Shown here: piece by piece, positions 27,284-50,414 of the stretch | How the letters are laid out: every line of letters begins with the position of its first letter | Numbering within the stretch: the stretch's first letter is position 1 | Source of the DNA: an uncultured Pirellulaceae bacterium | GTDB taxonomy: Bacteria; Planctomycetota; Planctomycetia; Pirellulales; Pirellulaceae | Assembly (NCBI GenBank): GCA_937967505.1 | Contig: CALCJM010000060.1 | Coordinates: 1-64,000 of the forward strand | Reading direction: 5' to 3' | Length of the DNA stretch: 64,000 nucleotides | Notes under the pieces: generated by a model | What the model was told of the DNA's origin: nothing | Seen by the model: only the letters and a program-made list of their open reading frames with translations | The model's database searches: none | Position numbers and translations under genes: made by a program

Positions 27284-28648
27284 ATGATTCACACGATTAA
27301 AAAAGGGCTGGATCTACCCATCACCGGGAAACCCGTCCAGTCGATTGAACCCGGACCGGCGATTTCTCACGTGGCGTTGTTGGGCGACGATTACCATGGC
27401 ATGAAGCCAACCATGTTGGTTGCCGCAGGGGACAGCGTCAAAGCTGGCCAGCCGGTTTTCACCGACAAGAAAAACGAGGGCGTGACTTTTGTGGCTCCGG
27501 CGGCCGGCAAAGTCAAAGCCGTCAACCGTGGTGCCAAGCGTAAGTTTTTATCGCTGGAGATTGAAATTGATGGTGATGCTGAAGAAACTTTCAGCGTGCC
27601 CGGTTCGCCTTCGTCGGTTGATCGCCAAACGGCGGGGAAATTCCTCGTACAGTCGGGACTGTGGCAGTCCTTTCGCACGCGCCCCTACAGCAAGGTCCCC
27701 ACAATCGGTTCTGAGGCCGATGCGATTTTCGTCACTGCCATGGATACCAATCCGCTGGCTGCCGAACCTGAACTGATCATTGCCGAAAACAAGGAACTGT
27801 TCGTCACAGGCCTTCAGATCGTGGCCAAACTGACCCAGGGTAAGACCTACGTTTGCACTCGTCCCGACTCACGTGTCCCTGGCGACAACGTGCCCAATGT
27901 CAGTTTCGAGCAGTTTGCCGGCATGCACCCGGCGGGGTTGGTCGGCACACACATTCATACACTGCATCCGGTTGGGCCTGATTCACGTCCGGTATGGCAC
28001 ATTGGCTATCAGGATGTGATCGCGATCGGTCACCTGTTTACAACAGGTAAACTGATGACCGAGCGCGTCGTGGCGGTTGCTGGTCCGGCGATTGAAAACC
28101 CGGGTCTTTTAAGAACCCGTTTGGGTGCGTCAATTTCGGATCTGTTTTCCGGACGTGCCGTTGGTGAAAATTCACGGATCGTTTCGGGATCATTGTTCAA
28201 CGGGCGGACTGCGGCAAATGAGGTTGCCTATCTGGGACGTTACCATAATCTGGTTTCCGTTCTGGAAGAGGGCAACAAGCGCGAGTTTTTGGGCTGGCAG
28301 ATGCCTGGCGGCGACAAATTCTCGGTAACACGAATTTATGGTGGATCGTGGTTGGCTCAGTTTAAAGAGAAACTGTTTCCGCTAACGACCAGTTCCGGTG
28401 GTAGCAAACGCGCGATGGTTCCTGTTGGGACCTACGAACGCGTGATGCCGCTGGATATGCTGCCGACGCAGTTGTTGCGGGCGTTGATCGTTGGTGCCCA
28501 GACCGGCGAAACCGAACCCGCCCAACAATTGGGGGCACTTGAATTGGACGAAGAAGACCTGGCACTTTGCACCTATGTTTGCCCGGGCAAATACGAATAC
28601 GGTTCCATCCTGCGGAAGAATCTGACTCTAATCGAGAAAGAGGGATAA
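27284..28648 (+). CDS. nqrA: Na+-translocating NADH:quinone reductase subunit A
   Basis: A 454-residue peripheral subunit of Na+-NQR, the primary sodium pump that oxidises NADH with ubiquinone. The start [13 protein letters not shown] is diagnostic. The body contains Thr-Arg-Pro-Asp-Ser (Cys-Thr-Arg-Pro in other members), [11 protein letters not shown] and a C-terminal Tyr-Val-Cys-Pro-Gly-Lys-Tyr-Glu-Tyr. NqrA carries the quinone-reduction side and lies on the cytoplasmic face. First gene of nqrABCDEF; nqrB starts 6 bases after its stop. Confidence 0.97.
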
Positions 28649-28653
28649 CAAGC

Positions 28654-29943
28654 ATGCTGCGTAAATTACTCGACAAAGTCGAACCGCTGTTTCACCAGGG
28701 CGGCCCGCTGGAGAAACTGTATCCGCTTTACGAAGCCAACGATACGTTTCTGTATACGCCGGGAGAGGTTGCCACAGGTGAAACCCACGTGCGCGATGCG
28801 ATCGACCTGAAACGCATGATGTCCATGGTCATCGTGGCGCTGATTCCCTGCATCCTGATGGCGATGTACAACACCGGCTATCAGGCTCAGAAAATTTTCG
28901 CCGCCGGGCTGGCTGAAGTTCCATCGGGTTTCACTGTCGCGGAAGGACTGTGGAATGGCGACTGGCGATTCACTGTCCTTGAGGCAGCGGGCGTCGATGT
29001 CACATATAACCGGGGGTCGTTCCTCAGTATCGGCAGTATTTTGCCTTGCCTGTTCCACGGTGCACTGTATTTCCTGCCTGTCTACGCGGTCTGTATGTTT
29101 GTCGGTGGTCACTGTGAAGTGGTTTTCTCGATCCTTCGCAAACACGAAATCAACGAGGGCTTTCTGGTTACCGGGATGCTGTTTCCGTTGACGCTGCCGG
29201 CGACAATCCCGCTGTGGCAGGTTGCCATTGGAATCGCCTTTGGTGTCATCGTGGGCAAAGAAATTTTCGGAGGTACCGGAAAGAACTTCCTGAACCCCGC
29301 TCTCACCGCCCGCGCGTTTTTGTACTTTGCCTACCCAACCAAAATCAGCGGTGATGCAGTTTGGACCGCCGTTGATGGTTACACAGGGGCCACCGTTCTG
29401 GGGGCAATGGCCAGTGCGACCACAGGGACTACTGCTGAAATTTCCAAAACCATGACCAGCGTCGGTGGCTGGGGGTGGTGGGACTACTTCATTGGAAACA
29501 TTCACGGGTCAATGGGCGAAACCAGCGTGCTGTGTTGTATTTTCGGTGCGGCCGTCCTGATTGCGACGCGTGTTGGTTCATGGCGAATTATGTCCGGTGT
29601 TGTGGCTGGCATGGTTGCCTTTTCCAGCCTGCTATGTCTGATCCCGGGGGCAGCACCTATCACGTACATGGGCCCAATGTGGCACCTTGTGGTGGGCGGT
29701 TTCGCTTTTGGAACGGTCTTCATGGCCACAGATCCGGTGTCAGCTTCCATGACTCCTACCGGTAAGTGGATCTATGGCGTGCTGATCGGATTTTTGACCG
29801 TGCTTGTGCGAGTGGTCAATCCGGCATTTCCCGAAGGTATCATGCTGGCGATTCTGTTCGCCAACGTGTTCGCTCCACTGATTGATTACTTTGTTGTTCA
29901 AGCCAACATCAAACGGAGGACCGCTCGTTATGCAGTCGGATAA
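28654..29943 (+). CDS. nqrB: Na+-NQR subunit B
   Basis: A 429-residue polytopic subunit with about ten membrane segments. It has the typical start (Lys-Leu-Leu-Asp-Lys-Val-Glu-Pro) and the [15 protein letters not shown] motif. The Gly-Tyr-Thr-Gly-Ala-Thr motif at 242-247 places the covalently bound FMN on Thr247, the ApbE target. Together with NqrD/E it forms the sodium path. The ATG at 28654 follows an AGGGATAA segment; the frame extends upstream only as a shadow of nqrA. It overlaps nqrC by 14 bases. Confidence 0.97.
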
Positions 29944-30808
29944 AAATTACGATAAAGATTCACCGGTCAACGTCATTCTCCTGGCGGTGGCGTTGTGCGT
30001 AGTGTGTTCGCTGGTTGTTTCGTCGGCCGCCGTCGGACTGCGTTCGTGGCAGGACGCCAACGTGCTGTTGGACAAACGGGCCAATATCCTGAGTGTTGCC
30101 GGTTTTGAAGATGTGGCGACGGCAAGTATCAATGACGTTTTCTCCAAACGATTCACCGTCGAATTAATCGACATGAATACCGGCTTACCGGCCGCCAAAG
30201 AGGCGATGGCAGCGATGGAAGCGGCAGGGAAAAAATACGCCGACGAAGCAGAGACGATTGACAAATACGACCAAATCTGGGCGTCGAAGTCGAAAAAGCC
30301 CTCGGTCAGCGACGAACTGTCCCGAGAGGAAGACAAAACCCAGATCAAGTATCGTGAAAAATTCTCTCACGTGTACGTGTTGAAGTCGGAAGACGGCAGT
30401 ACTGTTGAAAAATACGTTTTCCCCGTTCGCGGTTATGGACTGTGGTCAATGATGAAGGGTTACCTGGCCGTTGAGCCAGATCTGCAAAAGATCGCGGGTT
30501 TGACCTTCTACGAACACGGCGAAACACCAGGGCTTGGTGGCGAAATCAAAAGCGCGCGATTCAAAAGCCAATGGCCTGGTAAGGAGATTTATGGCGAGGA
30601 CGGCAATGTGGCCGTACGTGTGATGAAGGCCGCTCCCAAAGATAAATACAGTGTGGATGCACTTTCTGGAGCGACCATTACTTCAACCGGCGTCTCTAAT
30701 TTGATGCAGTATTGGCTGGGACCAAACGGTTTCGGCCCGTACATCGACCAGAAAAAAGGCAAGACGCAAACCACGATGATCAAGTCGGGAGACACAAACA
30801 ATGGGTAA
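29930..30808 (+). CDS. nqrC: Na+-NQR subunit C
   Basis: A 292-residue subunit with one N-terminal membrane segment (about 14-36) and a periplasmic FMN-binding domain. Ser-Gly-Ala-Thr-Ile-Thr-Ser at 246-252 is the flavinylation site (Thr249). Gly-Glu-Thr-Pro-Gly-Leu-Gly-Gly-Glu precedes it, as in all NqrC/RnfG proteins. Residues about 95-140 include an extra charged stretch rich in Lys, Asp and Glu, not typical of gammaproteobacterial NqrC. The start overlaps the end of nqrB. Confidence 0.96.
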
Positions 30809-31424
30809 AAGTAACAAGGATCTGATTTTGGATCCTGTCTTCGACAACAACCCTATCGCGCTTCAGGTGCTGGGCATCTGTAGCGCTCTGGCGGTGACGA
30901 CTCAGCTATCCACATCCTTCGTGATGGCGGTTGCGGTAACGATTGTGACGGCGTGCGCCAGTGCAGCGATTGCGGCGATCCGCCATCGCATCCCGTCCAG
31001 CATCCGTATCATCGTCCAGATGACCATCATCGCCTCGCTGGTGATCGTGGTGGACCAAGTGCTGAAAGCATTTGCATTTAAACTGTCTCAGGAACTGTCC
31101 GTATTCGTGGGCCTGATCATTACCAACTGTATCGTCATGGGACGCGCGGAAGGTTTTGCGATGAAGAACAGCGTCAAGGACAGTTTCTTGGACGGTATCG
31201 GTAACGGGCTGGGCTACGGCCTGATCCTGCTGGTGGTCGGTTTTTTCCGTGAACTGTTCGGCAGCGGGAAGCTATTTGGCCAGATTATTTTGCCTTTGAA
31301 GGCCGATGGCGGCTGGTACGAACCCAACGGTTTGATGCTGCTGTCTCCATCTGCGTTTTTCATTATTGGTTTCTTTATCTGGGCACTCCGCACTTGGAAG
31401 CCTGACCAGATCGAAAGTGCGTAG
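30801..31424 (+). CDS. nqrD: Na+-NQR subunit D
   Basis: A 207-residue membrane protein with six hydrophobic segments. The [19 protein letters not shown] start is diagnostic and includes the cysteine that takes part in the intramembrane iron centre shared with NqrE. A Gly-Leu-Ile-Ile-Thr-Asn-Cys-Ile-Val segment supplies the second cysteine. It overlaps nqrC by 8 bases. Confidence 0.97.
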
Positions 31425-31487
31425 GACGCTGCACCAGCGAACCGCTTCGGTAATTTTCGAAACACAAATTTTAACTCGGCGTTAATC

Positions 31488-32090
31488 ATGGACATTCAAG
31501 CACTCGGCAATCTGTTTTTAAAATCAGCGTTTGTCGATAACCTCGCACTGGCTTACTTTTTGGGAATGTGCACCTTTTTGGCCGTTTCCAAAAACGTCAA
31601 AACGGCATTGGGACTGGGTGTTGCAGTTATCGCAGTTCAGACCATTACGGTTCCAATCAATAACCTGATCTACAATCTGATACTCAAAGAGGGTGCCTGG
31701 TTAGTCCCTGCAAACTTGGAATTTCTTGGCCTGATTTGTTTTATCGGCGTGATTGCGGCGATGGTGCAGATCCTCGAAATGACGCTCGATAAATTCTTCC
31801 CGCCGCTATACAACGCATTGGGGATTTTCCTGCCGCTGATCACGGTGAACTGTGCCATCCTTGGTGGAACCCTGTTTATGCAACAGCGCGATTACACGTT
31901 TACAGAAAGCGTCGTGTTTGGAGTTGGCAGCGGATTTGGTTGGGCGGCAGCGATCGCCGGCCTGGCCGGGATTCGCGAGAAACTGCGTTACTCTGACATC
32001 CCGGCTCCACTACGCGGGCTGGGCATCACTTTTATTATCGTTGGGTTAATGGCACTTGGTTTCCAGGCATTTCTTGGAATTCAGGTTTAA
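31488..32090 (+). CDS. nqrE: Na+-NQR subunit E
   Basis: A 200-residue membrane protein homologous to NqrD and RnfA, with six hydrophobic segments. Diagnostic parts are [10 protein letters not shown], [12 protein letters not shown] (iron-centre cysteine) and [10 protein letters not shown] (second cysteine). It lies 63 bases after nqrD. Confidence 0.97.
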
Positions 32091-32191
32091 GGTTGACGAA
32101 CAAGTTTTAAAAAAACAGAGCAGGGCAGGGCGTTGTTCCTCTTTGGCGGTCGTGTTCCTGATTCAATAACTGACTTACAGCAGATAATCAT

Positions 32192-33412
32192 ATGGATATC
32201 CTTTTAGGTGTGGCGCTTTTTACGATCGTGGTCGTGGCATTGGTTGGACTGATTCTGGTTGCCCGGACGTTTCTGGTCTCATCCGGTGCGGTCAAGATCA
32301 TGATCAATGGCCAGAAGGAAATCGAAGTCGCCGCTGGCGGCAAATTGATGAACGTGCTGGGCGATGCCGGCATCTTTGTTTCGTCGGCATGCGGCGGCGG
32401 CGGAACCTGTGCCCAGTGCCTGGTGAAGGTCGAGGCAGGCGGTGGCGATCTGTTGGAAACCGAAAAAGGGCACATCAACAAAAAAATGGAACGTCAAGGT
32501 TGCCGACTGTCCTGCCAGGTACCCGTCAAGCAAGACATGGTTGTCGAGGTTCCCGAAGAAGCGTTTGAAACAAAAAAATGGGAGTGTACCGTACGCTCCA
32601 ACGACAACGTGGCCACCTTCATCAAAGAACTGGTGCTGGAGCTGCCCGAAGGCGAGGACGTTGCCTTTAAGGCCGGTGGCTACATTCAGATCGAGGCACC
32701 ACCACACGTTGTCAATTATAAAGATTTTGACATCGGTGAAGAGTATCAGGGAGATTGGGACAAATTCGATGTTTGGAGATACGTTTCCAAGGTTGACGAA
32801 GAGGTTGTTCGCGCCTATTCGATGGCAAACTACCCGGGTGAAAAAGGCATCATCATGTTGAACGTGCGCGTCGCCTCGCCACCACCACGCGCCCCCGAAG
32901 GCACGCCACCCGGAAAGATGTCCTCATTTATCTTTAACCTGAAGCCGGGCGACAAGGTCACGATCTCAGGGCCTTATGGCGAATTCTTCATCAAAGACAC
33001 CGATGCAGAAATGGTTTACATTGGCGGCGGTGCCGGCATGGCCCCGCTACGAAGCCATATTTTTGAACTGTTCCGCAACCTGAAAACAGGACGCAAGGTA
33101 ACCTACTGGTATGGCGGTCGAAGTTTACGTGAGTTGTTCTATGTAGATCATTTCCGCAAAATTGAAGAGCAGTTCCCGAACTTCAAATTCAATATTGCGC
33201 TGTCTGATCCTCAACCGGAAGACAACTGGGACGGCTATGTTGGTTTCATTCACCAAGTGTTGTTGGACGAATACCTGTCCAAGCACGAATCACCCGAAGA
33301 CAACGAGTACTATATCTGTGGTCCGCCAATGATGAACGCGGCGGTCTTCCGAATGCTTGACGATTTGGGCGTGGAACCGGAAAACATTGCTTACGACGAT
33401 TTTGGCGGGTAA
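32192..33412 (+). CDS. nqrF: Na+-NQR subunit F (NADH-oxidising)
   Basis: A 406-residue electron-input subunit. An N-terminal membrane helix (2-24) is followed by a 2Fe-2S ferredoxin domain with Cys67, Cys73, Cys76 and Cys108. The FAD domain has Arg-Ala-Tyr-Ser-Met-Ala-Asn-Tyr-Pro, and the NADH domain has [12 protein letters not shown] and Tyr-Tyr-Ile-Cys-Gly-Pro-Pro-Met-Met. NADH donates electrons through FAD and the iron-sulfur centre to the NqrD/E iron site. It lies 101 bases after nqrE, so a separate promoter inside the gap is possible. Confidence 0.97.
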
Positions 33413-33525
33413 ATTTCCCGATGGGAGTTGGACTTCCGCCGTCCACGGCATTAGTGCCGGCATTTATCATTTCACTGCCGGGCCCCAGTCACCTTAGGTC
33501 ATTTCGAACCCTATGACGTAACTTC

Positions 33526-34887
33526 ATGAATCGATCAAAGACCACCAGAACACGGGTTCAACTTCAGGCTCTATTTTTGTTTCTGATGATGCTGGCCGGC
33601 TTGGTAGTGTCCAATCACTTGCTGAACGCTGCGGTGGTCGCGTCCGTTGGTGCCTCTTCAACAGTGCGTGAATTTCAGGTAGAGATTCGCGGCATCACGA
33701 TGGGAAAGGTTCCCTACAAAATCATCGTGGTGGCTGATCCTCCCGAAGAGAGGTGTCTGGAGATTAAACAAGCGGTTGTCGCGGCGCTTGATTCGGTCAA
33801 CCAGTTGATGTCAACCTATCGGCCTGACTCAGACGTTAGCCGTTTCAATGCCACTGATTCGACCGAGTGGTTTGCTGTCGATCCCGAAACCGCGCTGGTG
33901 GTGCAGCGGGCGTTGGAGATCAGCCGTATGACCGACGGTGCTTTCGACATCACGGTTGGCCCGGCGGTTAACAAGTGGAATTTCGGACCCCAAAAAAATG
34001 TCTTCCAACCACTCTCCGACCGGCAAGTCGCAGAGCTGCAGACGCTGGTGGGATACACACACCTTCAGGTACGTTTGGAACCGGCGGCGATCAAAAAAAC
34101 TATAGCGCGACTTCAGATTGACCTGTCCGCCATCGCCAAAGGTTACGCGGTCGATCAAGTCGGTGCGAAGCTTGAATCAATGGGGTTTCAGCGGTATCTG
34201 GTCGAGGTCGGTGGCGAGGTGACCGTACGCGGCCAGCGCGCTGGAGGGGGGAACTGGATTGTCGCTATCGAATCCCCTGATGCCAAGCAAGCGACAAACG
34301 CTGCAGCCAGCACGATTCGCAAAACATCGTTGAACAATGTTGCAGTCGCAACTTCAGGAGACTATCGTAATTTTCACCTCTACGAGGGGCAGCGTTATTC
34401 ACACACGATTGACCCAACCACTTGCCGTCCTGTCAACCACTTGTTGGCGTCCGCATCGATCGCAGCCAGCGATTGCATGACTGCCGACGCTTGGGCAACC
34501 GCAGCCATGGTGATGGGAACGCAACGCGCCCATCAAACGGCCGCCGCAAACGGCATCGCCATTCTGACCTTTACGCGCGGTGACGGCGACTACACCCAGC
34601 AGCGTGGCGGCGACTACCCGCTGGTCACTGAAGAACCGGTAACCGACGACGTTGCCGCAAAAATACGGACAGGAAACAAAAATTCAATTGCCCCGACGTT
34701 TCTGGCTGCATTGGCCGTGTTTCTGCTGGCCGTTGTAGGTATGGCGATCGGTGCCATCGTGGCCAACAAACCCGTCACGGGATCCTGTGGCGGTATCGCG
34801 GCGGCTGTCGGTGAGGATGGCGAATCTTCATGCATGGTGTGCTCAAAACCGGTCAGTGACTGCACGCTGCCCGACGCCCCCTCATAG
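33526..34887 (+). CDS. ApbE flavin transferase fused to NqrM-like C-terminus
   Basis: A 453-residue protein that appears to join two Na+-NQR maturation factors. A signal anchor covers about 13-36. ApbE spans about 50-370, with Ser-Thr-Tyr-Arg-Pro-Asp-Ser, [12 protein letters not shown], Val-Glu-Val-Gly-Gly-Glu, Tyr-Ser-His-Thr-Ile-Asp-Pro and Ala-Asp-Ala-Trp-Ala-Thr-Ala. This enzyme attaches FMN to NqrB and NqrC threonines. The end has one membrane segment (391-413), then Gly-Ser-Cys-Gly-Gly-Ile and three more cysteines (436, 439, 446), matching the short NqrM protein (DUF539) needed for NQR assembly. The layout puts ApbE outside and the cysteine tail inside the cell. It closes the nqr operon. 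Confidence 0.9.
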
Positions 34888-35023: not shown

Positions 35024-35228
35024 AGATCATCGGTAGCCCATCCCAACTGCGATCTGTCGGCAGCCACGCCCCCCACCAGCCTCGCCTACCGGTACCACAG
35101 CTTGCGGTCAACAGCAGCACCTCCGTCTCGCGTTTGTCAGGCACTGGGCGGTTTGGTTTTTTTGACAATGTTTGTCGATCTGTTCTAATAACCAGATCCG
35201 TTTTTCCTCGTTCAAGTTTTGCCCAACC

Positions 35229-38200
35229 ATGTCGGAACGCGCTGATCAGTCTTTCGAATCGATCGTCAAAATTGCCGCCTCACTTTCGTCGGTTCAGCTT
35301 GAGCAAATGCTGTTGATGTTGACCCCTTCGACCCGTGCGATGGTTCGGCAGGCTCTGGGAAACAATCGACCGTCAGACAACAATCTCCCGGATCCTGACG
35401 CTTCACCTCGCACGGTGGCTGAAGATCGGATGCAGGACAATCCTCTGCCGAACGGAGATTTTAATCAGCCCACCGGCTGCGGTTCACATCAGCGATTGCC
35501 TGCCACCGTCATTTTGGATTCGGATTCCGCTTCGACCGTCGCATCGGATCCAACGGGACCGTCGCTTCAGGATGGTGTGAGTCTCATTAAGCTGCACGCG
35601 CGTGGTGCGTTTGGCGAAGTGTTCGTGGCTCATGATCAGTCTCTCTCGCGCGAGGTCGCGGTGAAACGCCTGCGGCCTGACCTGGCACACGATCAACGGC
35701 GTGCCACCCGTTTTGTGCGCGAGGCCGAGATCACGGCGCAGCTGCAACATCCGGGCATTGTGCCAATCTACAGCTTGAACGTAAACGATGCCGGCAGCAA
35801 TTATACGATGCCGTTGGTATCTGGATCGACCCTGCACAACCTGATTGTTGACACTCATGAAAAACTGGGCCCTCGACCAAACCGGGATCAGTGGCAATCC
35901 GGGATTCGTCCACTATTGATCCACTTTATCGCCGCCTGCCATGCGATCGATTATGCACACTCCCAGCAAGTGCTTCATCGTGATATCAAACCCGCCAATA
36001 TCATTATCGGCCAGCAAGGACAAACATTGGTGCTGGACTGGGGATGTGCAAAAAAATTCAATGAAGCCGACCATGAAATCGAACCATTGGAAATCGAAAA
36101 TGATGAACTGGAGGAGATCTTTGGGGAGGGCTTTAGTTCAAGGATGACCGTCGCCGAATCTGTCATGGGTACCCTTGAGTTTATGAGCCCTGAACAGGCC
36201 GGTGGCAAGGGTTCCAGTGTCGGGCCCGCCAGTGACATTTTTGGTCTGGGGGCCACTCTGTTTCATCTAATTACTGGCGATTTCGCAATTCAAACCAGTG
36301 GCTCGGACACCAAAGAAATTGATAGCGCACTAAAGCAGGTACGGCAATGCGACTTTCGCCGCGTAGAAGAGGTGGCCCCACGCGTGCCGCCTGCCATTGC
36401 AGCGATCTGTCACCGCGCGATGGCAACGAATCCGGCCCAGCGCTATGCGACTGCCGATGATTTGGCACGCGATGTCGATGCATTTTTGGCGGGGACCCCC
36501 GTGTCTGCCTATCAGGAATCGTGGACCGACAGAACCGGACGGTTTGTCAAACGACACCGGACACTATTTACAACGCTGCTGGGAGTACTGTTGGTTGGTT
36601 TCGCTTCGGCAGTCCTGTTGGCACTGATGGCCAACCTGCAACGCGCGGCATTGACCGATAAAAATAACGAACTGGCCAATCTAAATATACAACTGGAGAA
36701 ATCAGTAACCATCGAACAGCAATTGGCCGCCGAGGCAATTGTCAGGGAACAAAAAAGTGTACAGCAGCTCTACCAGACCCAGATGTTGCTGGCCAGCGAG
36801 GCTTCTTCGGAACCTGGTGGTGTCGGTCGTATGCGGCAACTGACCAATCGCTGGCGCGATGACCAGTTCAAGGCCTTTCGCGGCTGGGAATGGCAGCACC
36901 TCGATGCACTCGGTCATAGAGAACTCTGGAGCATCAAATCGGGCGCCACCGCAAACAAGATTATGTTCACCCGTGATGCAGCCCACGGACGGATCCTCGA
37001 TACCGGTGCCGGATTGATGCTGGAAATTGACACCGATGGCGAACGTTTGCTGGATCCTGCAACGCTTCCCGACAATGTCACTACGGCCGATTTCAACCGG
37101 GATCAGTCGCAAATGGCCCTCGGGTTTCGCGACGGTAGCGTAAAAGTCTATGATATGACCGGGAAAAAACTGAAGCCGGTCGAGTTCTTACATTTGACTT
37201 CTGCCGTTACTGATGTCTGCTGGAATATTGGCGGCGACATGCTGGCGACATGCGACTCGTCAGGTCAGATGGTCGTCTGGCAGTGGTACGAACAGGCGAT
37301 CGTTGCGAAAGCATCGGGCGTTCTGAATCAACCCAACAAAAGACTGTTGAATTGGTCCTACGACGGGAAACAGGTTTGCTGGACTACCGGCCGAGACCTC
37401 AGGGCGCTGAACATTGAAAACCAGACCGAAGTAGTGCTCGCACAAGATCACTGGATCGTGTCGCCCTGCTGGAGCCACGAAGGGAAGTTGATTGCCTACA
37501 TCGGCCCGGAAAACGTAATCGCTGTCGTTGATCCCGCCGCCAAAAAGACGACACGCTTCAAAGGCCATCAATTATTTATTGAATCGCTGTCATGGCATCC
37601 GCACAGGCACTACCTGCTGTCCTCCAGCGCCGACGGAACGGTCAGGATTTGGAATGCCGACACCGAAAAACAAACACACTTGCTCTTGGGACACAACGCA
37701 CACGTCTATTCAGCAGCCTGGACTTCTGCGGGGGATAAAGTTGTCTCCGGCGGTTTACCGGAAGATGCGTTGCACGTCTGGGACCTGACCACCCTCGGAA
37801 GTGCCGCGTTTGAACGTGAGCTTCAGGACCACCCTGCCGTCGCATGGCACCCCGACGGGCAGCAACTTGCCGTCGCCGAAGGCGTCGATATTGTGATCCA
37901 GGACGAACGCGGCCGGACACGCTGGATGCGCGATCTAGGTGCAAACAACACATCAATCTACGGGATTGATGTCGATGCCCAAGGCAAGAAGATTGCCTGT
38001 GTCTCTCGCAAGGGGCGTGTGTGGACGGTCAGTTTTGAAACCGGGAAATTGGAGAAGCTCTACGATCCGGGCAGCGATCAAAATCTCTATCCCGACCTCA
38101 CCAGCAAATCCGTTGCCTGGTCACCCGAGGGCCTGTTTCTTGCAGCGGTTGGTTCCAACGGAGAAGTTCGGGTTTGGAACACGCAAACCGGCATCAACAT

Positions 38201-38711
38201 TGCGGAGACCTTGCCGATCTGCGGCAAATCGCTGGTGGTTTCTTGGCAGCCATCGGTGAACTCTGATCAGTCATGGCTGGCAGTGGCGGGGACTCAAGAT
38301 AATATCACAATCTTCGACGCGCGCAAAAAAACTGTCATCGCAGAACTGCGGCAGCCGGGCTGGAAAACCGGACTTGACTGGTCACCAGAGGGCGATGCGC
38401 TGGCAATCTCCGACCGCAGGAGCGTCGCGATCTGGCAGATCAACAATTCAGAAAAACCGGAACTGACCGGTGTCTGCGAGGGGCCCAGCGCGATGGTGCT
38501 GGATCTCTCGTGGAGCAACCAATCTGACCGGATCGCCGCGTTAACCGAAGACGGAAAAGTCTGTCTTTGGAACGCCCGAACCAGAGCCTACATCGCGAAA
38601 TTTGATTTGCACCAGCGCGTGCCCTATTCGATTCACTGGAGCCCCGACGGTAGGCGTCTGGTTTCCACCGCTCGTCATGGACGCATCGAATTCCAGGGCA
38701 TCGATCAGTAA
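35229..38711 (+). CDS. Ser/Thr protein kinase with C-terminal WD40 propeller
   Basis: A 1160-residue membrane-anchored kinase. A disordered N-terminus (about 1-120) precedes a Hanks-type kinase domain: the glycine loop reads Ala-Arg-Gly-Ala-Phe-Gly-Glu-Val, the Lys is in Val-Ala-Val-Lys-Arg, and the catalytic loop His-Arg-Asp-Ile-Lys-Pro-Ala-Asn is near 250. The metal motif is Asp-Trp-Gly instead of Asp-Phe-Gly. Met-Ser-Pro-Glu-Gln marks the activation segment end. A transmembrane helix (about 445-468) and a short coil follow. The rest, presumably extracytoplasmic, has many WD40 repeats (Ser-Ser-Ala-Asp-Gly-Thr-Val-Arg-Ile-Trp-Asn is a clear one). The stop codon is at the edge of a family B repeat. 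Start chosen at ATG 35229. Confidence 0.92.
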   Translation: MSERADQSFESIVKIAASLSSVQLEQMLLMLTPSTRAMVRQALGNNRPSDNNLPDPDASPRTVAEDRMQDNPLPNGDFNQPTGCGSHQRLPATVILDSDSASTVASDPTGPSLQDGVSLIKLHARGAFGEVFVAHDQSLSREVAVKRLRPDLAHDQRRATRFVREAEITAQLQHPGIVPIYSLNVNDAGSNYTMPLVSGSTLHNLIVDTHEKLGPRPNRDQWQSGIRPLLIHFIAACHAIDYAHSQQVLHRDIKPANIIIGQQGQTLVLDWGCAKKFNEADHEIEPLEIENDELEEIFGEGFSSRMTVAESVMGTLEFMSPEQAGGKGSSVGPASDIFGLGATLFHLITGDFAIQTSGSDTKEIDSALKQVRQCDFRRVEEVAPRVPPAIAAICHRAMATNPAQRYATADDLARDVDAFLAGTPVSAYQESWTDRTGRFVKRHRTLFTTLLGVLLVGFASAVLLALMANLQRAALTDKNNELANLNIQLEKSVTIEQQLAAEAIVREQKSVQQLYQTQMLLASEASSEPGGVGRMRQLTNRWRDDQFKAFRGWEWQHLDALGHRELWSIKSGATANKIMFTRDAAHGRILDTGAGLMLEIDTDGERLLDPATLPDNVTTADFNRDQSQMALGFRDGSVKVYDMTGKKLKPVEFLHLTSAVTDVCWNIGGDMLATCDSSGQMVVWQWYEQAIVAKASGVLNQPNKRLLNWSYDGKQVCWTTGRDLRALNIENQTEVVLAQDHWIVSPCWSHEGKLIAYIGPENVIAVVDPAAKKTTRFKGHQLFIESLSWHPHRHYLLSSSADGTVRIWNADTEKQTHLLLGHNAHVYSAAWTSAGDKVVSGGLPEDALHVWDLTTLGSAAFERELQDHPAVAWHPDGQQLAVAEGVDIVIQDERGRTRWMRDLGANNTSIYGIDVDAQGKKIACVSRKGRVWTVSFETGKLEKLYDPGSDQNLYPDLTSKSVAWSPEGLFLAAVGSNGEVRVWNTQTGINIAETLPICGKSLVVSWQPSVNSDQSWLAVAGTQDNITIFDARKKTVIAELRQPGWKTGLDWSPEGDALAISDRRSVAIWQINNSEKPELTGVCEGPSAMVLDLSWSNQSDRIAALTEDGKVCLWNARTRAYIAKFDLHQRVPYSIHWSPDGRRLVSTARHGRIEFQGIDQ

Positions 38712-43421: not shown

Positions 43422-45284
43422 CTAGCGAATAAACTTCATCCGTTTGAAGTTCGGAAAAAACGGTAATGGCTCGTTCAGCGAATGCGGCCAGAACACAAAC
43501 AACGCACGTCCGATCAGCATCTCGCGTTCAACAAACTTGGGACCACTCCAGACGCGTCCGTCCAAACTCTCGGCGCTGTTATCACCCATCGGAAGGAACT
43601 GGTCCTTGCCGGGGTCTTCGTAGTCTTCCAGATAAAACATGGGAGTTGTCTGCCCTTTTTTTCGGGAAAACAGATCCCTGGCGGCCTTGCTGCTCCATTT
43701 TTCCGGACTTCGCATCATTTGATAGACCAACGACGGATCCGCCAGTGACTCGTTTTCCATCTGGGAAACCTGCACCTGTTCGCGTAATGAGTTACGGCGG
43801 TACTTCATTTCCCCAAAACGATGGAAGCGTTCCAGTAACCGTGCGAGCGAACCGGTTTGATTGGTCGATGTGTAATACACGTCGCGAAAACAGGCGATGT
43901 GATTAATGGTCACTTCAAGATTTTGACAGCCGATTCCCAGCGGTTCGGCGTCTGCTGAATCCTCGATAGAGAAATGGGGAACCGGAATGTCCGACCGTCG
44001 GTAGTCCATCGCATTGAATTCCACCACGCTGTCATCGACCCAAAGATACAATCGATCATCGGCATTAAAGAAACGGACCTTGTATCTGCCCGCCGACGTG
44101 ATGGCCGTCTGGCCTGCAGGTTCCGCGACCGGGTTGCCGTCAGCATCGACGAACTCAATCGTGGATCCCTCCGGTGTTTTTACCGCCAATGTCGCCTTGC
44201 CAGTTTGCGAGTTGACCGTGCAAGTGAAATGAGCACCGCCTTCGACGATCTCGAAACTCAAATTCCCTTTCCCCGACACAATTTCCAAATTGGCCTCAAA
44301 ACCAATGTCGCCCACCCAGTGATAGCCAACGCTTTTTTTGTCCATTGGTCCAATCACGCCATCATTATGAGCGACGTAGTCATTCACCAAACGTCCCTTC
44401 ACATCGAACTCTTTAATCTCGCCCGCGCTGTCGAGCATCTCATTGATTTGCTCCCATTCGACCTCATCGGGACGATTGTTGCTAAACCGCAACCAACTCA
44501 CTTCAGGACGCGCGGTCGATCGATAACGCAAGCTTTCACCAAAGCCCTCGCCAACCCAGTTGGGTTCGCCGCCACGCTGTTCCCAGGATCGTGGCCAACC
44601 GACCTGCCGCAGTGAACTGCCAAAATATCTGGTGTCCGCAATTCGCTCGGCAGTCTGCACCAACTTTTCAGGTGGCTTGGGCTGAATTTTCTTCGACCAG
44701 GTCTCGTCTGGCTGTTTATGCATCGTGTAGATGTCACCGTTTTCGATCAGGATGTTCTCCCCCGGCAACCCAATCAGACGCTTGATGTAGTTCTGTTTGG
44801 CATGATTGGGATTTTTGAAAACAATCACATCGTACCGCTGGGGATCCTCAAAATCGTAGACGAATTTATTGACCAAAATCCTGTCGCCATTGAAGGTATT
44901 GTGTTCTGGATTGGACCGTTTGGTGGGGGTCGTGAAACGGCATAAGGGACAGGTCGTTGCGGCGACCTTGGCATCGTGGCTGGCCCCAACCTGATAATGG
45001 TACCCACACTGTCCGCATCCCAAGTCCTTGTGTTGCCCTTGAAGGGAGGGTGCCATTGACCCGGTTGGAATGATAAAGGCTTCGGCTTCGAATGCCTTGA
45101 ACATCATTGCCAGCACCACGGCGATCACAATCGATTCGACCGTTTCCCGGACGGCCATGCTTTTGAAGAATCCAAAGATTCCCGGTGGCTGATCGTCCGC
45201 AAGGATTGTTGCCGCCGTGCTGGCCTTCGCTTTAACAGCGCGAGGCTCTTCTCCGGGAAAAGACCGTTTTCGTCGTTTGGCCAT
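43422..45284 (-). CDS. lepB: Signal peptidase I with zinc-ribbon and large insertion
   Basis: A 620-residue type I signal peptidase, about twice the usual size. A basic head and one membrane helix (about 50-66) precede the catalytic Ser76 in Ile-Ile-Pro-Thr-Gly-Ser-Met-Ala-Pro-Ser. A four-Cys zinc-ribbon (90, 93, 112, 115) is inserted right after. The general base Lys168 is in Tyr-Ile-Lys-Arg-Leu-Ile-Gly-Leu-Pro-Gly-Glu. Then comes an insertion of more than 300 residues with a beta-sandwich look (Arg-Leu-Tyr-Leu-Trp-Val-Asp-Asp). The conserved Gly-Asp-Asn-Ser-Ala-Glu-Ser-Leu-Asp-Gly-Arg box ends the catalytic core. It removes signal peptides at the outer face of the membrane. Such enlarged forms are typical of planctomycetes. 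Confidence 0.92.
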   Translation of the reverse strand: MAKRRKRSFPGEEPRAVKAKASTAATILADDQPPGIFGFFKSMAVRETVESIVIAVVLAMMFKAFEAEAFIIPTGSMAPSLQGQHKDLGCGQCGYHYQVGASHDAKVAATTCPLCRFTTPTKRSNPEHNTFNGDRILVNKFVYDFEDPQRYDVIVFKNPNHAKQNYIKRLIGLPGENILIENGDIYTMHKQPDETWSKKIQPKPPEKLVQTAERIADTRYFGSSLRQVGWPRSWEQRGGEPNWVGEGFGESLRYRSTARPEVSWLRFSNNRPDEVEWEQINEMLDSAGEIKEFDVKGRLVNDYVAHNDGVIGPMDKKSVGYHWVGDIGFEANLEIVSGKGNLSFEIVEGGAHFTCTVNSQTGKATLAVKTPEGSTIEFVDADGNPVAEPAGQTAITSAGRYKVRFFNADDRLYLWVDDSVVEFNAMDYRRSDIPVPHFSIEDSADAEPLGIGCQNLEVTINHIACFRDVYYTSTNQTGSLARLLERFHRFGEMKYRRNSLREQVQVSQMENESLADPSLVYQMMRSPEKWSSKAARDLFSRKKGQTTPMFYLEDYEDPGKDQFLPMGDNSAESLDGRVWSGPKFVEREMLIGRALFVFWPHSLNEPLPFFPNFKRMKFIR

Positions 45285-45388: not shown

Positions 45389-46354
45389 TTATCGGCACCG
45401 CCAAAACTGCTCCTGCCGAATCCCCAGCTTTTTCTGCGTTTGGGCGATGTCTTGGCGGAACCGCTTGGCATCCTCCGGGTAACCCTTGGTCGGCCTCAAA
45501 CCTTCCTGGTGTTGAGCCCAATACCCGTTCCAAGCCCGCATATACACCTCGCGCAAGTACTTGGACACCATCGACGCCAGTGCCACCGGTAATTGGTCCT
45601 CCCCTCTGGCGGTAAAACGAATTTCAGCGTCCACCGCTTGATCCAACCACCGATAAACACTCTGTTCGCCCGACTCTCTGGCAACAAGGACCTCACGGTT
45701 GGTCAAATAGCGCTCAATCAAATGACGATAACTGGAGCGCCCGCCGTGCTTGTCACAGTCCACCAATACCGCCCCCTCGCATTCTGCCAGTAAGCGATCG
45801 ATCACATTCATCGTGCACCCGGAAAGCATATTGGCTTTGTTCCCCTCGATGGCAATCGCATCATTAAACTCCTCCGGCAATACAATTTCCGCATTCACGT
45901 TCAACAGGGACACATCGCTGGACGCGCACTGTGTCAAAAATCGATCCGCCGCGCGCCCCACCGCATCAACCGAACATTTAACCGGTAACGGTACGGCCTG
46001 GTCGGCCAACCAGAACACCCTAGAGAAAAAATCGTCCGTCACATCGCGTTTTACCACGCGTGTCAATTCCCGCAAACTGCGCGGGATCCTCCCTGCCAGC
46101 AGGGAAAGCATCGTCAGAACCGAGCGTTCCAGTTGCTCGATCGACTTCGACCGATAGACGACTTTGGAATCTGCGATCGCGATCGATTGCTTGTCAGGAT
46201 GATTGCGCCCCGGGGGGCGATCAACCACACACGGAGAAAGTAACTGGTACAGATCATCATCGCGCCCATTTGTCTTCCACAGCGTTCCTGTCACAACCAG
46301 CGGTCCCAAATTAGGACCATACCCCGCCTCGTCAGTTCCAATTTTGAAGGGCAA
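45389..46354 (-). CDS. Ribonuclease HII-like protein
   Basis: A 321-residue protein. The start Gly-Thr-Asp-Glu-Ala-Gly-Tyr-Gly-Pro-Asn-Leu-Gly-Pro-Leu-Val-Val is an RNase HII/HIII motif I (Asp8, Glu9), although the canonical Arg of Asp-Glu-Ala-Gly-Arg-Gly is Tyr. Ala-Asp-Ser-Lys (61-64) matches the second motif. The third acidic cluster could be Val-Asp-Cys-Asp-Lys-His-Gly-Gly (198-205), and the C-terminal Ser-Met-Val-Ser-Lys-Tyr-Leu-Arg-Glu matches the last motif. The fold is therefore RNase H-like, with catalytic acids apparently kept, but the protein is about 100 residues longer than RNase HII, with unusual inserts. RNA/DNA hybrid cleavage is inferred only. Confidence 0.78.
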   Translation of the reverse strand: MPFKIGTDEAGYGPNLGPLVVTGTLWKTNGRDDDLYQLLSPCVVDRPPGRNHPDKQSIAIADSKVVYRSKSIEQLERSVLTMLSLLAGRIPRSLRELTRVVKRDVTDDFFSRVFWLADQAVPLPVKCSVDAVGRAADRFLTQCASSDVSLLNVNAEIVLPEEFNDAIAIEGNKANMLSGCTMNVIDRLLAECEGAVLVDCDKHGGRSSYRHLIERYLTNREVLVARESGEQSVYRWLDQAVDAEIRFTARGEDQLPVALASMVSKYLREVYMRAWNGYWAQHQEGLRPTKGYPEDAKRFRQDIAQTQKKLGIRQEQFWRCR

Positions 46355-46608
46355 GAAAACTCTCCTGTGAGGATTCGGTAAGGCTGTACGGCGGAAGGCC
46401 AGAACAACGGCAACTCTTGAACAGGATTGTAACGTCTACAACTAATCGGCAACAGCATCTTCCAAACGCGCGCCAATGCGGGACAATTATCCAATCAACG
46501 AACGGAAGCACACCCAATTACAGAGCGTCTTCCGCCTTACGCCCCCGTGGCCTCCAATCCCATCCATCCATCCATCCATTCCAAATCAAAGTTAAACGGA
46601 CTATCACC

Positions 46609-47346
46609 ATGGCGATGTTTGCCAAACTAGAAAATCGTAACCTCCAACCGGAACTGATGGATGATCCGACGCTACCAGATGCCCAACATGATCATGCATT
46701 GCGTGGCCTAACCCGCATCCATCAATTTTCCGGACTGGTGAACCGTTTTTGGAACCCGGTCCGCACCTGTCTCGAACTGCAATCGCAGTATCGCAGCGCG
46801 GCGGCACCTTTGCCGCGAATTATGGATGTCGGGTGCGGCGACGGTTACCTGCTTCGGCAAATTGGCCAGAAGGCAAGAGCGGCCGGGATTGCGGTCGAAC
46901 TGATCGGCATCGATATGAGCGAAACGGCTTTGCGATTGGCAGAGGCTAAATCGCAGGCTGAACAGATTCAAATTAAGACCCGACAGGTGGACATCCTCCA
47001 ACAAGATCTCCCGCCGTCAGACATTGTGATCAATTCATTATTTCTCCACCATTTTGAGGCTGATCAGGTGGTGCAGATCCTGACGAAGTTCAGCGCTGCG
47101 ACAAAACTGCGGTTGATTGTGGAAGACTTGCGCCGGACGTCGCTCGGATATGTGTTAAGCTATGTCGCGGGTCATGCACTGACCCGCAGTTCGGTCGTTC
47201 ACTACGATGCCCTGCGTTCGGTGGAAGGTGCGTTTACCTGCGGCGAAATGCACGTCTTGGCCAGTCAGGCAGGGCTCGTCGGACACACCTTGACGAAACG
47301 CTGGCCCGAACGTTTTGTCATCGATTGGTCAAACAAGAACCAGTGA
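46609..47346 (+). CDS. SAM-dependent methyltransferase (type III PKS cluster)
   Basis: A 245-residue class I methyltransferase. Motif I is Met-Asp-Val-Gly-Cys-Gly-Asp-Gly-Tyr (72-80), and the acidic residue of motif II is in Ile-Gly-Ile-Asp-Met-Ser. Asn-Ser-Leu-Phe-Leu-His-His-Phe replaces the usual motif IV. It probably methylates the polyketide product made by the gene two positions downstream. The frame is open up to 46417, but the upstream part is unconvincing and includes a run of CATC units; the ATG at 46609 starts the conserved portion. It lies 62 bases before the oxidoreductase gene. Confidence 0.85.
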   Translation: MAMFAKLENRNLQPELMDDPTLPDAQHDHALRGLTRIHQFSGLVNRFWNPVRTCLELQSQYRSAAAPLPRIMDVGCGDGYLLRQIGQKARAAGIAVELIGIDMSETALRLAEAKSQAEQIQIKTRQVDILQQDLPPSDIVINSLFLHHFEADQVVQILTKFSAATKLRLIVEDLRRTSLGYVLSYVAGHALTRSSVVHYDALRSVEGAFTCGEMHVLASQAGLVGHTLTKRWPERFVIDWSNKNQ

Positions 47347-47408
47347 CAGCCTGCGCACAAGCTGATTCAGTGGCCTGCCTTGCACAATACTTCTACTGAA
47401 ACCACTCC

Positions 47409-48563
47409 ATGACCCAACTTCATCCTCTTGACTGTTGCAGTGATGAAGGTCATCGGTGGGATTTGATCGTCATCGGAGCTGGCCCCGCCGGATCCGGCGC
47501 GACGATTTCGGCACTCCATCCGGATGCCGGTGAGCGAAAAGTATTGTTACTCGATGCAAAGGCGTTTCCGCGTCGCAAAGCCTGTGGAGGCTGTTTGAAT
47601 CCGCGTTCGATTGGATTGTTGAAAAACTTGGTCGGGCCACATCATCCTCTGTGGGACAATTCGATTCAACTTTCGGAGTACCAGATTTTCCATCGCCAAA
47701 GATCTTTCACCTATCCGGTCGAATCCGGATGCGCTGTCGATCGGGCTGTCATGGATGCCGCCTTGGTAAAACAAGCCCAGCGTGCAGGGGCGACGTTCAT
47801 CGACAAAGCCACCGCGCGGCTGGGGCCGATTGATGGAGAGTTTCGGATCGTGCACGTCACGGCCGGTCAGCGTCAATTTGCGTTGCGAGCTAAATGTGTG
47901 GTGATCGCCAGTGGGCTTGGCAACCGCACCGCCGGCGATTTCCCTGATCTTCATCAATCGCCCTCGAAGAACTCGCGAGTCGGCGTCGAAGCAGTCTTCG
48001 ATGCCAATCGATCCGGTTACCAACGCGGCAGGCTTGCCATGGTGGTCGGGACGCAGGGCTACGTTGGCCTGACAGAGATCCAAGGAGTGCGTTTGCACGT
48101 GGCCGCGTCGGTCGATCGAAAGTTTCTTCAAACCTACGGCCCTGAAAAGGCCGTCGCTCAGTTGCTGCAACAGGCAGGAGCCCCCCAACTTTCACAGACA
48201 GGCGCGCGTTGGAAGGGAACGCCGCCATTAACCGCGCGAGCGATCAGATTGGCAGATCGGCGGGTGTTTCTGGTGGGTGACGCCGCCGGTTACGTGGAAC
48301 CATTTACTGGCGAGGGAATTCGCTGGGCACTTGAAAGCGCCCAAGGGGTGACGCCAATGGTTGATGCAGCTGTGGCAGGCTGGACCGACGATCTGATTGA
48401 GCAATGGGAACACTGGTACGCGCGATCCATCACCAACCAACAAAAATTGTGCCGGCAACTTTCGTCCGGGCTTAAACGCCCCGCTCTCCGCTGGGTGGCT
48501 CACCAGGCACTTCGTTTCAGCCCGCCTCTGGCTGCAAAAATCATTCAAAAAATTAACTCCTAG
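47409..48563 (+). CDS. FAD-dependent oxidoreductase (geranylgeranyl reductase-like)
   Basis: A 384-residue flavoprotein of the PHBH/GGR fold. The dinucleotide-binding motif Ile-Gly-Ala-Gly-Pro-Ala-Gly-Ser-Gly is at 22-30. Arg-Lys-Ala-Cys-Gly-Gly-Cys-Leu-Asn follows (a geranylgeranyl-reductase-like CxGG region), and Val-Gly-Asp-Ala-Ala-Gly-Tyr-Val-Glu-Pro-Phe-Thr-Gly-Glu-Gly is the second FAD motif. Likely a hydroxylase or reductase tailoring the polyketide. Starts 6 bases before the polyketide synthase gene, so it is in the same operon. Confidence 0.9.
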   Translation: MTQLHPLDCCSDEGHRWDLIVIGAGPAGSGATISALHPDAGERKVLLLDAKAFPRRKACGGCLNPRSIGLLKNLVGPHHPLWDNSIQLSEYQIFHRQRSFTYPVESGCAVDRAVMDAALVKQAQRAGATFIDKATARLGPIDGEFRIVHVTAGQRQFALRAKCVVIASGLGNRTAGDFPDLHQSPSKNSRVGVEAVFDANRSGYQRGRLAMVVGTQGYVGLTEIQGVRLHVAASVDRKFLQTYGPEKAVAQLLQQAGAPQLSQTGARWKGTPPLTARAIRLADRRVFLVGDAAGYVEPFTGEGIRWALESAQGVTPMVDAAVAGWTDDLIEQWEHWYARSITNQQKLCRQLSSGLKRPALRWVAHQALRFSPPLAAKIIQKINS

Positions 48564-48569
48564 GTTTGC

Positions 48570-49784
48570 ATGAGCCCCATCATTCGCGGAATCGGTACTG
48601 CCGTTCCTCCACACGTCATGACGCAGCCTGCCGCACTGGCGATGTTCCAAGATTTAACCTGTGTCGATCAACGGCAACGACGATTGGCGAAGGTCTTGTT
48701 TGAAAAAGCGGCCGTTGAGCAACGTCACACCTTCGTGCCCCATCAATCGGCCTACCGCTGGTGCAGTCCCGACCCGGTTCCGACAGACCAATGCGATATC
48801 AGTTATCTTTCGACAGCTCCGGAGCCAATTCCAGCCTTGCAACCCGGTGCCAGCCCGGGACTGACGACGGGGCAGCGGTCGAAATTGTACGCACATTACG
48901 CCGGAAAACTTGCGGCGGATTCCGCCGGCAAAGCGATACAGGACTCCGGGGTCTCGCCTGCTTCGGTCACACATTTAGTTACCGTATCCTGTACTGGTTT
49001 CGCCTCGCCCGGACCGGACATTCATTTGGTGAAAACACTGGGGCTGCCGGCAACGATCCAGCGGACAAACGTCGGCTTCATGGGCTGTCATGGATCAATC
49101 AATGGGATGCGGGTGGCATTGAACATCGTGAAAGCCGATCCGGCGGCAGTCGTGCTGATGACATCTGTTGAACTTTGCAGTCTGCATTGCCGTTTCCAGT
49201 GGGATAGTGAGAAAATTGTCGGCAACGCACTGTTTGGAGACGGTTCCGCGTCGCTGGTGTTCACCGGGGATGCGGTAGATTCGGCTTCACCCGCCAAGGG
49301 GGAAACGTGTTGGCAACCGATCGCAACCGGTTCGGTACTGATCCCCGACTCTGAACCGGCACTTAGTTGGCACGTGGGCGATCACGGTTTCGAGATGGTT
49401 CTAACCAGCGATATCGGCGATCACATCCGGGCATCGCTGCACAGGTGGTTGGTGGAGTGGCTGGCCGAACAGGGAATTGATTTCGAACGGATTACTTGCT
49501 GGGGCGTTCACCCGGGCGGCCCCAGAATCCTGTCGGCGGTCCAATCAAGCCTTGGTCTGACAGCGGAACAGCTTTTAACCTCGACTGGTGTCCTGCGTGA
49601 ATTTGGAAACATGTCGTCACCGACAGTACTGTTTATCCTTGAGCGCTTCCGCCGGCAGATTGCCCGGCAGTCGACTGGACCGCACGGCCCTGACACCGAT
49701 CAGAGGCCAACCAATTATTGCGTGCTGATTGCATTTGGCCCGGGAATGATGGCCGAAGTCGCATTGTTAAAATGCCGTGGCTAG
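48570..49784 (+). CDS. Type III polyketide synthase (chalcone-synthase-like)
   Basis: A 404-residue chalcone/stilbene-synthase-family enzyme that condenses acyl-CoA starters with malonyl-CoA. The catalytic triad is visible: Cys173 in Gly-Phe-Met-Gly-Cys-His-Gly, His314 in Gly-Val-His-Pro-Gly-Gly-Pro, and Asn347 in Glu-Phe-Gly-Asn-Met-Ser-Ser-Pro. Thr-Val-Ser-Cys-Thr-Gly-Phe-Ala-Ser-Pro-Gly and Leu-Phe-Gly-Asp-Gly-Ser-Ala are also typical. The bacterial forms related to this (alkylresorcinol or alkylpyrone synthases) use long-chain starters. Three-gene clusters with a methyltransferase and an FAD enzyme are known in planctomycetes, and type III PKS loci there have been linked to alkylresorcinol-like lipids. 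Product remains inferred. Confidence 0.93.
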   Translation: MSPIIRGIGTAVPPHVMTQPAALAMFQDLTCVDQRQRRLAKVLFEKAAVEQRHTFVPHQSAYRWCSPDPVPTDQCDISYLSTAPEPIPALQPGASPGLTTGQRSKLYAHYAGKLAADSAGKAIQDSGVSPASVTHLVTVSCTGFASPGPDIHLVKTLGLPATIQRTNVGFMGCHGSINGMRVALNIVKADPAAVVLMTSVELCSLHCRFQWDSEKIVGNALFGDGSASLVFTGDAVDSASPAKGETCWQPIATGSVLIPDSEPALSWHVGDHGFEMVLTSDIGDHIRASLHRWLVEWLAEQGIDFERITCWGVHPGGPRILSAVQSSLGLTAEQLLTSTGVLREFGNMSSPTVLFILERFRRQIARQSTGPHGPDTDQRPTNYCVLIAFGPGMMAEVALLKCRG

Positions 49785-50029
49785 AGCGCGCTGGCCGCGC
49801 CAACGAAACGCCCCAATATGCGAATTGGCACTATTCCCGGCGGCAGGCATAGAACAGTCTTGGAAAGGGCATGGATGCGGCCAAGCCTCGGGCGGCCAGA
49901 ACGGTCGATGGGGCTGTCGAGCGATGGTCGCTCAGCGGCAGTCGTTCTATCGAAATGTAAGTCTGCGCCCACGGTTGGAAAGTTTGTCTTCCTTTGCTAC
50001 ATTTGAGAGTTGTTGAAAACATCGCCAAG

Positions 50030-50102
50030 GCCCCTGTAGCTCAGTGGATAGAGCACAGCTTTCCTAAAGCTGGTGTCGCAGGTTCGATTCCTGCCAGGGG
50101 TG
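50030..50102 (+). tRNA. tRNA-Arg (CCU anticodon)
   Basis: A complete cloverleaf can be folded: acceptor GCCCCTG with CAGGGGT (G-U at the first pair), D arm GCTC / GAGC, anticodon stem CAGCT / AGCTG with loop TTCCTAA (anticodon CCT), and T arm GCAGG / CCTGC with loop TTCGATT. The discriminator base is G. CCA is not encoded. It reads AGG codons. Confidence 0.95.
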
Positions 50103-50414
50103 CTTTGTTTTCTTTGGGTTTTGAAAGCCTCCTGTCCGACAAACTTTTGTATGGTGTGAGCCTCCCTTCAGTAAAAATCGTTCGCACACCGGTAAACACC
50201 AGCACTTATCAGTCTGGAGTGCCCTCATTTATCACTCCCCGGCCCCCCTGAAGCGCAATACAGGATCGCATTTTTTCGAAACAAACCACATAATTTGTCA
50301 GCCGAAGCTTGGGGCAAATCGGCCTCGGAAGCTTTTGGCATTAAAATTATTTCGAGGTGTTGAAATTGACTCAGAATTCTACCTCGAAGCCAGCCAGTCA
50401 TTGGATAGGGTCAG
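50103..50414. other. Gene-free stretch after tRNA-Arg
   Basis: Between the tRNA and the oxygenase gene no coding or RNA feature is seen. No repeat of the tRNA 3' end was noticed here. The stretch begins the accessory-looking zone. Confidence 0.35.

Follow-up and report, generated by a model that had tools for sequence, protein, structure and literature searches.

The 64,000-nucleotide stretch of Pirellulaceae DNA analyzed here, hereafter the window, contains at 46609-49784 three successive open reading frames (ORFs) on the + strand, coding for a methyltransferase (MT), an FAD enzyme and a type III polyketide synthase (PKS), spaced 62 and 6 bases apart (Table 1). The trio and its spacings are thus as described in the initial annotation, which had been made from the DNA letters and their translations. 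The MT frame (ATG at 46609, stop at 47346) itself extends upstream as far as a TTG at 46417. A run of CATC tetranucleotides at 46560-46582, approximately 26 bases upstream of the MT start, may be slippage-prone or may merely be due to chance, and scans for promoters and terminators returned fewer sites than in shuffled sequences. The window also encodes members of the DUF1501 and DUF1559 families, which we take to be typical of planctomycetes, and a PSCyt1 protein. The latter is a planctomycete family, so named by Pfam. The source genome, a 5.0 Mb assembly of 183 contigs rated 88.9% complete, has a second match to Chal_sti_synt_N (34 bits; locus L002) within a 334-aa ORF that, judged by eye, looks like a KAS III-like protein, so that no type III PKS other than that of the window was found in this incomplete assembly.

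Table 1. Genes of the three-gene operon and its immediate neighbors in the window
Feature	Position	Strand	Evidence
RNase HII-like gene, upstream neighbor outside the pathway	45389..46354	-	PF01351
SAM-dependent methyltransferase, HidA position, 245 aa	46609..47346	+	Pfam, NCBIfam, DVGCGDG motif
FAD-dependent oxidoreductase, GGR/halogenase/hydroxylase fold class, HidB position, 384 aa	47409..48563	+	TIGR02032, motifs, model
Type III polyketide synthase, HidC position, 404 aa, Cys173/His314/Asn347	48570..49784	+	PF00195, PF02797, triad, model
tRNA-Arg (CCT), downstream neighbor outside the pathway	50030..50103	+	ARAGORN

The PKS contains both chalcone synthase (CHS) domains, scoring 89.1 bits against PF00195 and 87.7 bits against PF02797 (gathering score 27 each), along with the Cys-His-Asn triad at exactly the residues first pointed out as intact, and none of the three varies among 48 aligned operon PKSs, that of the window being one of them. 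This set derives from the 52 of 96 loci with all three frames complete, whereas in the others a partner was missing or a frame was unclosed or interrupted by a stop; L068-L070, which lie on the same contigs as L022, L024 and L023, and L110, with its short FAD frame, were dropped. A search of the three proteins against NCBIfam recovered nothing over the curated cut-offs. The best match of the PKS in this search was DpgA (NF042429), and it could accordingly be asked whether the enzyme is DpgA-like, producing 3,5-dihydroxyphenylacetyl-CoA from malonyl-CoA alone. However, the match scores 159 bits against a cut-off of 425, on which count we rejected DpgA identity, and the family context of the PKS is one of MT and FAD enzymes, making such an activity exceedingly improbable.

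In the alignment Met276 of the window PKS falls in the column of a chalcone synthase Phe, which we take to be the CHS F265 position (CHS numbering), and this column holds Met in all 48 operon PKSs. Trp267, His206 and Cys203, presumably equivalent to CHS G256, T197 and T194, respectively, are also invariant across the 48. Replacement of CHS Phe265 by Met is a mark of the HidC clade, according to the portion of PMC8086630 accessible to us. The PKS, whose predicted model has a pLDDT of 91.1, carries an extended loop at about residues 66-97, which is common to the four congeners that possess the operon, and other relatives also vary in length in this region. In a profile search the top solved sequences are 4b0n, a brown algal PKS, and PKS18, with the Mycobacterium marinum type III PKS also near, and 7d41, 4b0n, PKS11 and PKS18 come within the first ten in a fold search. 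PKS18 and the algal enzyme are long-chain acyl enzymes, and PKS18 is an alkylpyrone enzyme. With PKS11 likewise named in its PDB title as making alkylpyrones, the window PKS might be thought to generate alkylpyrones by lactonization, with the tailoring enzymes acting on the pyrone. Against this, PKS18 has N/L/C in the T197/G256/F265 columns versus H/W/M in 48 of 48 members of the operon family, and expressed PKSs from the operon or its variants gave resorcinols, as stated in the accessible sections of PMC10896814. We hence regard pyrone formation as quite improbable, and favor formation of a 5-alkylresorcinol.

The MT matches the Methyltransf_25 model of Pfam (49.4 bits against a gathering score of 27; 7.4e-13) and PRK06202 of NCBIfam (151 bits, below the cut-off of 243). 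Its DVGCGDG motif is present in a loose form in 67 of 70 MT homologues, a first, strict form having matched nine of the same 70 (L068-L070 left out).

The biochemical role of the FAD enzyme is less straightforward. It is recognized by FAD_binding_3 of Pfam (28.8 bits; gathering score 22), but its best named model is that of the geranylgeranyl reductase (GGR) family, TIGR02032 (GG-red-SF), at 119.1 bits. It carries GxGxxG and PFTGEG signatures, and the latter, in what we take to be a GGR-like form, recurs in 68 of 72 FAD-enzyme homologues (L068-L070 left out here too). In fold comparisons with its predicted model (pLDDT 92.1), the closest structures are the pyrrole halogenases (Z 36-38; PltA 37.6) and a GGR-like protein (35.5). 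The structure alignments A3 and A4 comprise 36 relatives each, hand-picked from usable frames. Taken together, the model match, the signature and the closest folds could indicate a halogenase or a GGR-like reductase, for example one that saturates the acyl chain, rather than a ring hydroxylase. Yet the score falls below the curated GGR cut-off of 158.8 bits, and the motifs that we take to define flavin-dependent halogenases, WxWxIP and FxxPxSxG, were found in none of the 72 homologues, that of the window included. Moreover, PHBH-type hydroxylases also align, with Z about 32, so the fold gives no decision among hydroxylase, reductase and halogenase. The cyanobacterial product hierridin B bears an extra ring hydroxyl (PMC10896814, part of the article). 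On balance, a reductase or halogenase seems somewhat unlikely, and by analogy with the hierridin pathway the FAD enzyme probably hydroxylates the ring of an alkylresorcinol.

To assess the conservation of the trio we searched for the PKS in 60 genomes, namely the window's own and 59 relatives, and obtained a match in 17 of them, the window's own included. In 13 of the 17 stretches contributed by the other 16 genomes the MT, FAD and PKS genes are neighbors, the PKS match being interrupted by a stop in two of the 13; a further two have adjacent MT and PKS genes without an FAD gene in line, one has the PKS alone and one is a PKS fragment at the contig edge. A wider survey considered the best 80 of 569 relatives, from which the named loci are drawn. 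MT>FAD>PKS occurs on one strand in 60 of these, the other arrangements being FAD>PKS in five (some at contig ends), PKS alone in nine (meaning that neither partner was detected at the search threshold) and others in six. Such recurrence argues against a chance neighborhood, although the 80 being the best of 569 relatives, 60/80 is not a frequency in nature. By their record titles, which may be wrong for metagenome bins, the 60 loci among these best 80 of 569 include seven from cyanobacteria, four each from Hydrogenedentota and Gemmatimonadota, three from Acidobacteria and one from Elusimicrobia. Pairwise distances of the three proteins are correlated over the 48 operons (Mantel r 0.65, 0.69 and 0.70; none of 999 permutations as high), as expected if MT, FAD and PKS travel together. 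The coefficients fall to 0.48-0.57 over the 44 operons left when the four congeners are removed, and shared host ancestry may contribute to part of the correlation.

Operons of this type have already been described, and the window's copy is by itself ordinary. Milke et al. (2024, PMC10896814; the following is from the sections accessible to us) reported that, of 96 type III PKS genes from planctomycetes, 58 lie in an MT-FAD-PKS operon, and obtained alkylresorcinols from expressed PKSs of Gimesia maris, R. baltica, S. maiorica and 'S. ferox', with pentadecyl- and heptadecylresorcinols among the products of the expressed planctomycete homologues; two planctomycete PKSs from outside the operon gave no product. 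Co-expression with the MT and FAD genes of G. maris led to one extra methyl, probably on carbon, and according to the authors the role of the G. maris flavin enzyme has yet to be explained. The same study drew a parallel with hidABC, proposed horizontal transfer between phyla and put the identity of planctomycete and cyanobacterial proteins at 48-55%; as far as its accessible text goes, a 2025 review (PMC12078418) repeats these findings. The locus in the window resembles this planctomycetal operon in gene order, protein families, catalytic triad and the planctomycete-typical families nearby. It resembles the picocyanobacterial hidABC operon for hierridin (Costa et al. 2019, as cited through PMC10896814 and PMC8086630, both in part) in its MT>FAD>PKS order and in the Met at the CHS F265 position. 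The window PKS is 40-44% identical to its cyanobacterial counterparts among the best 80 of 569 relatives, the corresponding values being 30-33% for FAD and 31-38% for MT; these lie below the 48-55% of PMC10896814 and count against the assignment. The connection to planctomycete alkylresorcinol clusters drawn in the initial annotation thus holds up, given the shared order, the HidC-clade Met and the alkylresorcinols made by expressed homologues (PMC10896814, as above). A further point of comparison lies outside these phyla. The srsABC cluster of Streptomyces griseus includes a methyltransferase. By its description in the accessible part of PMC8086630, it also joins an alkylresorcinol PKS to a hydroxylase gene, the combination proposed for the window's operon.

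We estimate at about 80% the probability that the locus is a hidABC-type operon, inherited as a three-gene cassette, in which the PKS makes a 5-alkylresorcinol that then undergoes methylation and probably ring hydroxylation; the product of the trio is very probably a methylated phenolic lipid. To go by the expressed homologues, the PKS would load a C16-C18 acyl-CoA (or acyl-ACP), add three malonyl units and close the 5-alkylresorcinol via a decarboxylating C2-C7 aldol condensation. Less firmly, the MT would methylate a ring carbon (probably, as in G. maris) or an oxygen (as with HidA), and the FAD enzyme, on the pattern of hierridin B, may hydroxylate the ring to give a methylated phenolic or hydroquinone lipid. 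The original suggestion of a methylated, oxidized alkylresorcinol/quinone-like lipid is therefore sustained with respect to methylation, through the G. maris co-expression, whereas its oxidized or quinone-like part leans on cyanobacterial hierridin B (PMC10896814, in part).

The position of the enzyme in a tree of the PKSs qualifies this picture. The tree, which is midpoint-rooted, has 78 rows, L068-L070, L025 and L027 having been dropped (the last two repeat L073 and L076), and includes relatives of tested enzymes rather than HidC or the enzymes from R. baltica, S. maiorica and G. maris. The window's PKS clusters with those of its four congeners in a starred clade. Most rows divide between two large groups, with 34 and 36 members and SH-aLRT values of 86 and 91, neither of them starred, and eight rows lie outside both. 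The first unites two Gimesia rows, Rhodopirellula sp. SM50 with TBK1r and all nine cyanobacterial rows; the second, with the window, has rows labeled Pirellulaceae, Lacipirellula, Isosphaeraceae, Hydrogenedentota, Gemmatimonadota and Acidobacteriota. A topology joining the window's clade to the Gimesia/cyanobacteria group was rejected (p-AU 0.0035), the group having been chosen after the tree was seen. The window PKS differs from the published planctomycetal type in its place in the tree, outside the group with the Gimesia and Rhodopirellula SM50/TBK1r enzymes, and in the longer 66-97 loop shared with its congeners. To our knowledge no product has been reported for any enzyme placeable in the window's group, and it is likely that no tested enzyme falls on this side of the tree. 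As the PKS lies outside the group with the relatives of tested enzymes, we infer even the resorcinol core of its product by analogy. One might go further and suppose, as a rather doubtful proposition, that the second large hidABC-type group represents unexplored chemistry, yielding a lipid unlike the hierridins and spreading between species as a three-gene cassette; were this true, the product would be a locally adaptive, swappable phenolic lipid.

Within the window's genus the PKS is present in five of 28 genomes and the MT in the same five; among the 16 genomes of the genus with at least 90% completeness and at most 5% contamination, one has the MT. The operon flanks are common to the congeners G008, G011 and G013, and those of G001 differ. 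Nevertheless, the operons of G001 and G011 share 81.4% DNA identity over 3175 bases, essentially just the three genes, and their proteins are 86% (MT), 80% (FAD) and 83% (PKS) identical, compared with 86, 78 and 80% between G011 and G013. The RNase HII of G001 is 44% identical to that of G011 and 69% to that of the window genome, and the G011 protein is 75% identical to the nearer of two copies in G013. The G013 bin has two RNase HII-like genes (L180 and L181), 45% identical to each other, reflecting either a second copy or a mixed bin. An operon at 81.4% DNA identity set against an RNase HII at 44% suggests transfer of the cassette into G001, and at the sequence level the simplest reading is apparently that it moved there from a G011-like donor. 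The three genes appear to be inherited, and at least once in the genus to have been transferred, as one unit. In G001, the regulator adjoining the operon is 94% identical to its counterpart in G005 and 92% to that in G000, against 84% in G011, and the flank on this side is collinear with G005 and G000 at 73-82% DNA identity; these observations led us to reject misbinning as the main cause of the G001 result. The G001 context could possibly still reflect a chimeric assembly. On the other G001 flank, a 734-aa protein is 60% identical to its equivalents in G005 and G012 and 53% to that in G000, and has no match in G011 at E 1e-60; this flank is not decisive. The G005 contig ends at the operon-flank region, so that the exact borders of the insertion are unreadable.

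In the window the operon sits between the RNase HII gene and the tRNA-Arg, and in G001 the RNase HII gene and the tRNA-Arg (CCT) are separated by 876 bases that contain no operon. Searches for an operon remnant in this interval of G001 and in the 1.5 kb past RNase HII in G005 produced only matches with E of at least 0.1; G005 lacks an MT within that 1.5 kb and any PKS or MT match genome-wide (rated 87% complete). The operon may have been gained between RNase HII and tRNA-Arg in the window's lineage or lost in its sisters, both being possible. In GC3 the three operon genes (0.57-0.60) roughly equal or fall slightly short of nine other genes of the window (0.60-0.66), so composition shows no recent import. 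A repeat search for mobile-element borders gave only short pairs, direct of 14-17 bases and inverted of 14-23 bases. One inverted pair, 46607-46620 and 50017-50030, brackets the operon with 13/14 pairing, a value reached in none of 40 mononucleotide shuffles of the flanks; since one arm takes in the MT start and the other reaches the tRNA, we draw no conclusion from it.

The locus is thus a little unusual in two respects, its branch with seemingly unexplored chemistry and the apparent unit-wise movement between species of the genus. It is of modest importance for two questions that PMC10896814, to judge from its accessible sections, does not answer, namely what planctomycete alkylresorcinols do in nature and what the flavin enzyme contributes. 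The genus includes close species that carry the operon, lack it or appear to have exchanged it, a natural set in which to compare lipids.

Certain other genes of the window deserve mention in their own right. The region 27284-34887 has Na+-NQR-like genes (NqrA, an NQR2/RnfD/RnfE family member and an NADH/FAD/2Fe-2S protein) and, after them, an ApbE-family gene. A single 1179-aa frame at 35172-38711 combines a Ser/Thr protein kinase with a large WD40 repeat region. At 43422-45284 is a signal peptidase (S26) of 620 aa, which is long for its family, has two matched stretches and shows 77-80% identity to its counterparts in two sister genomes.
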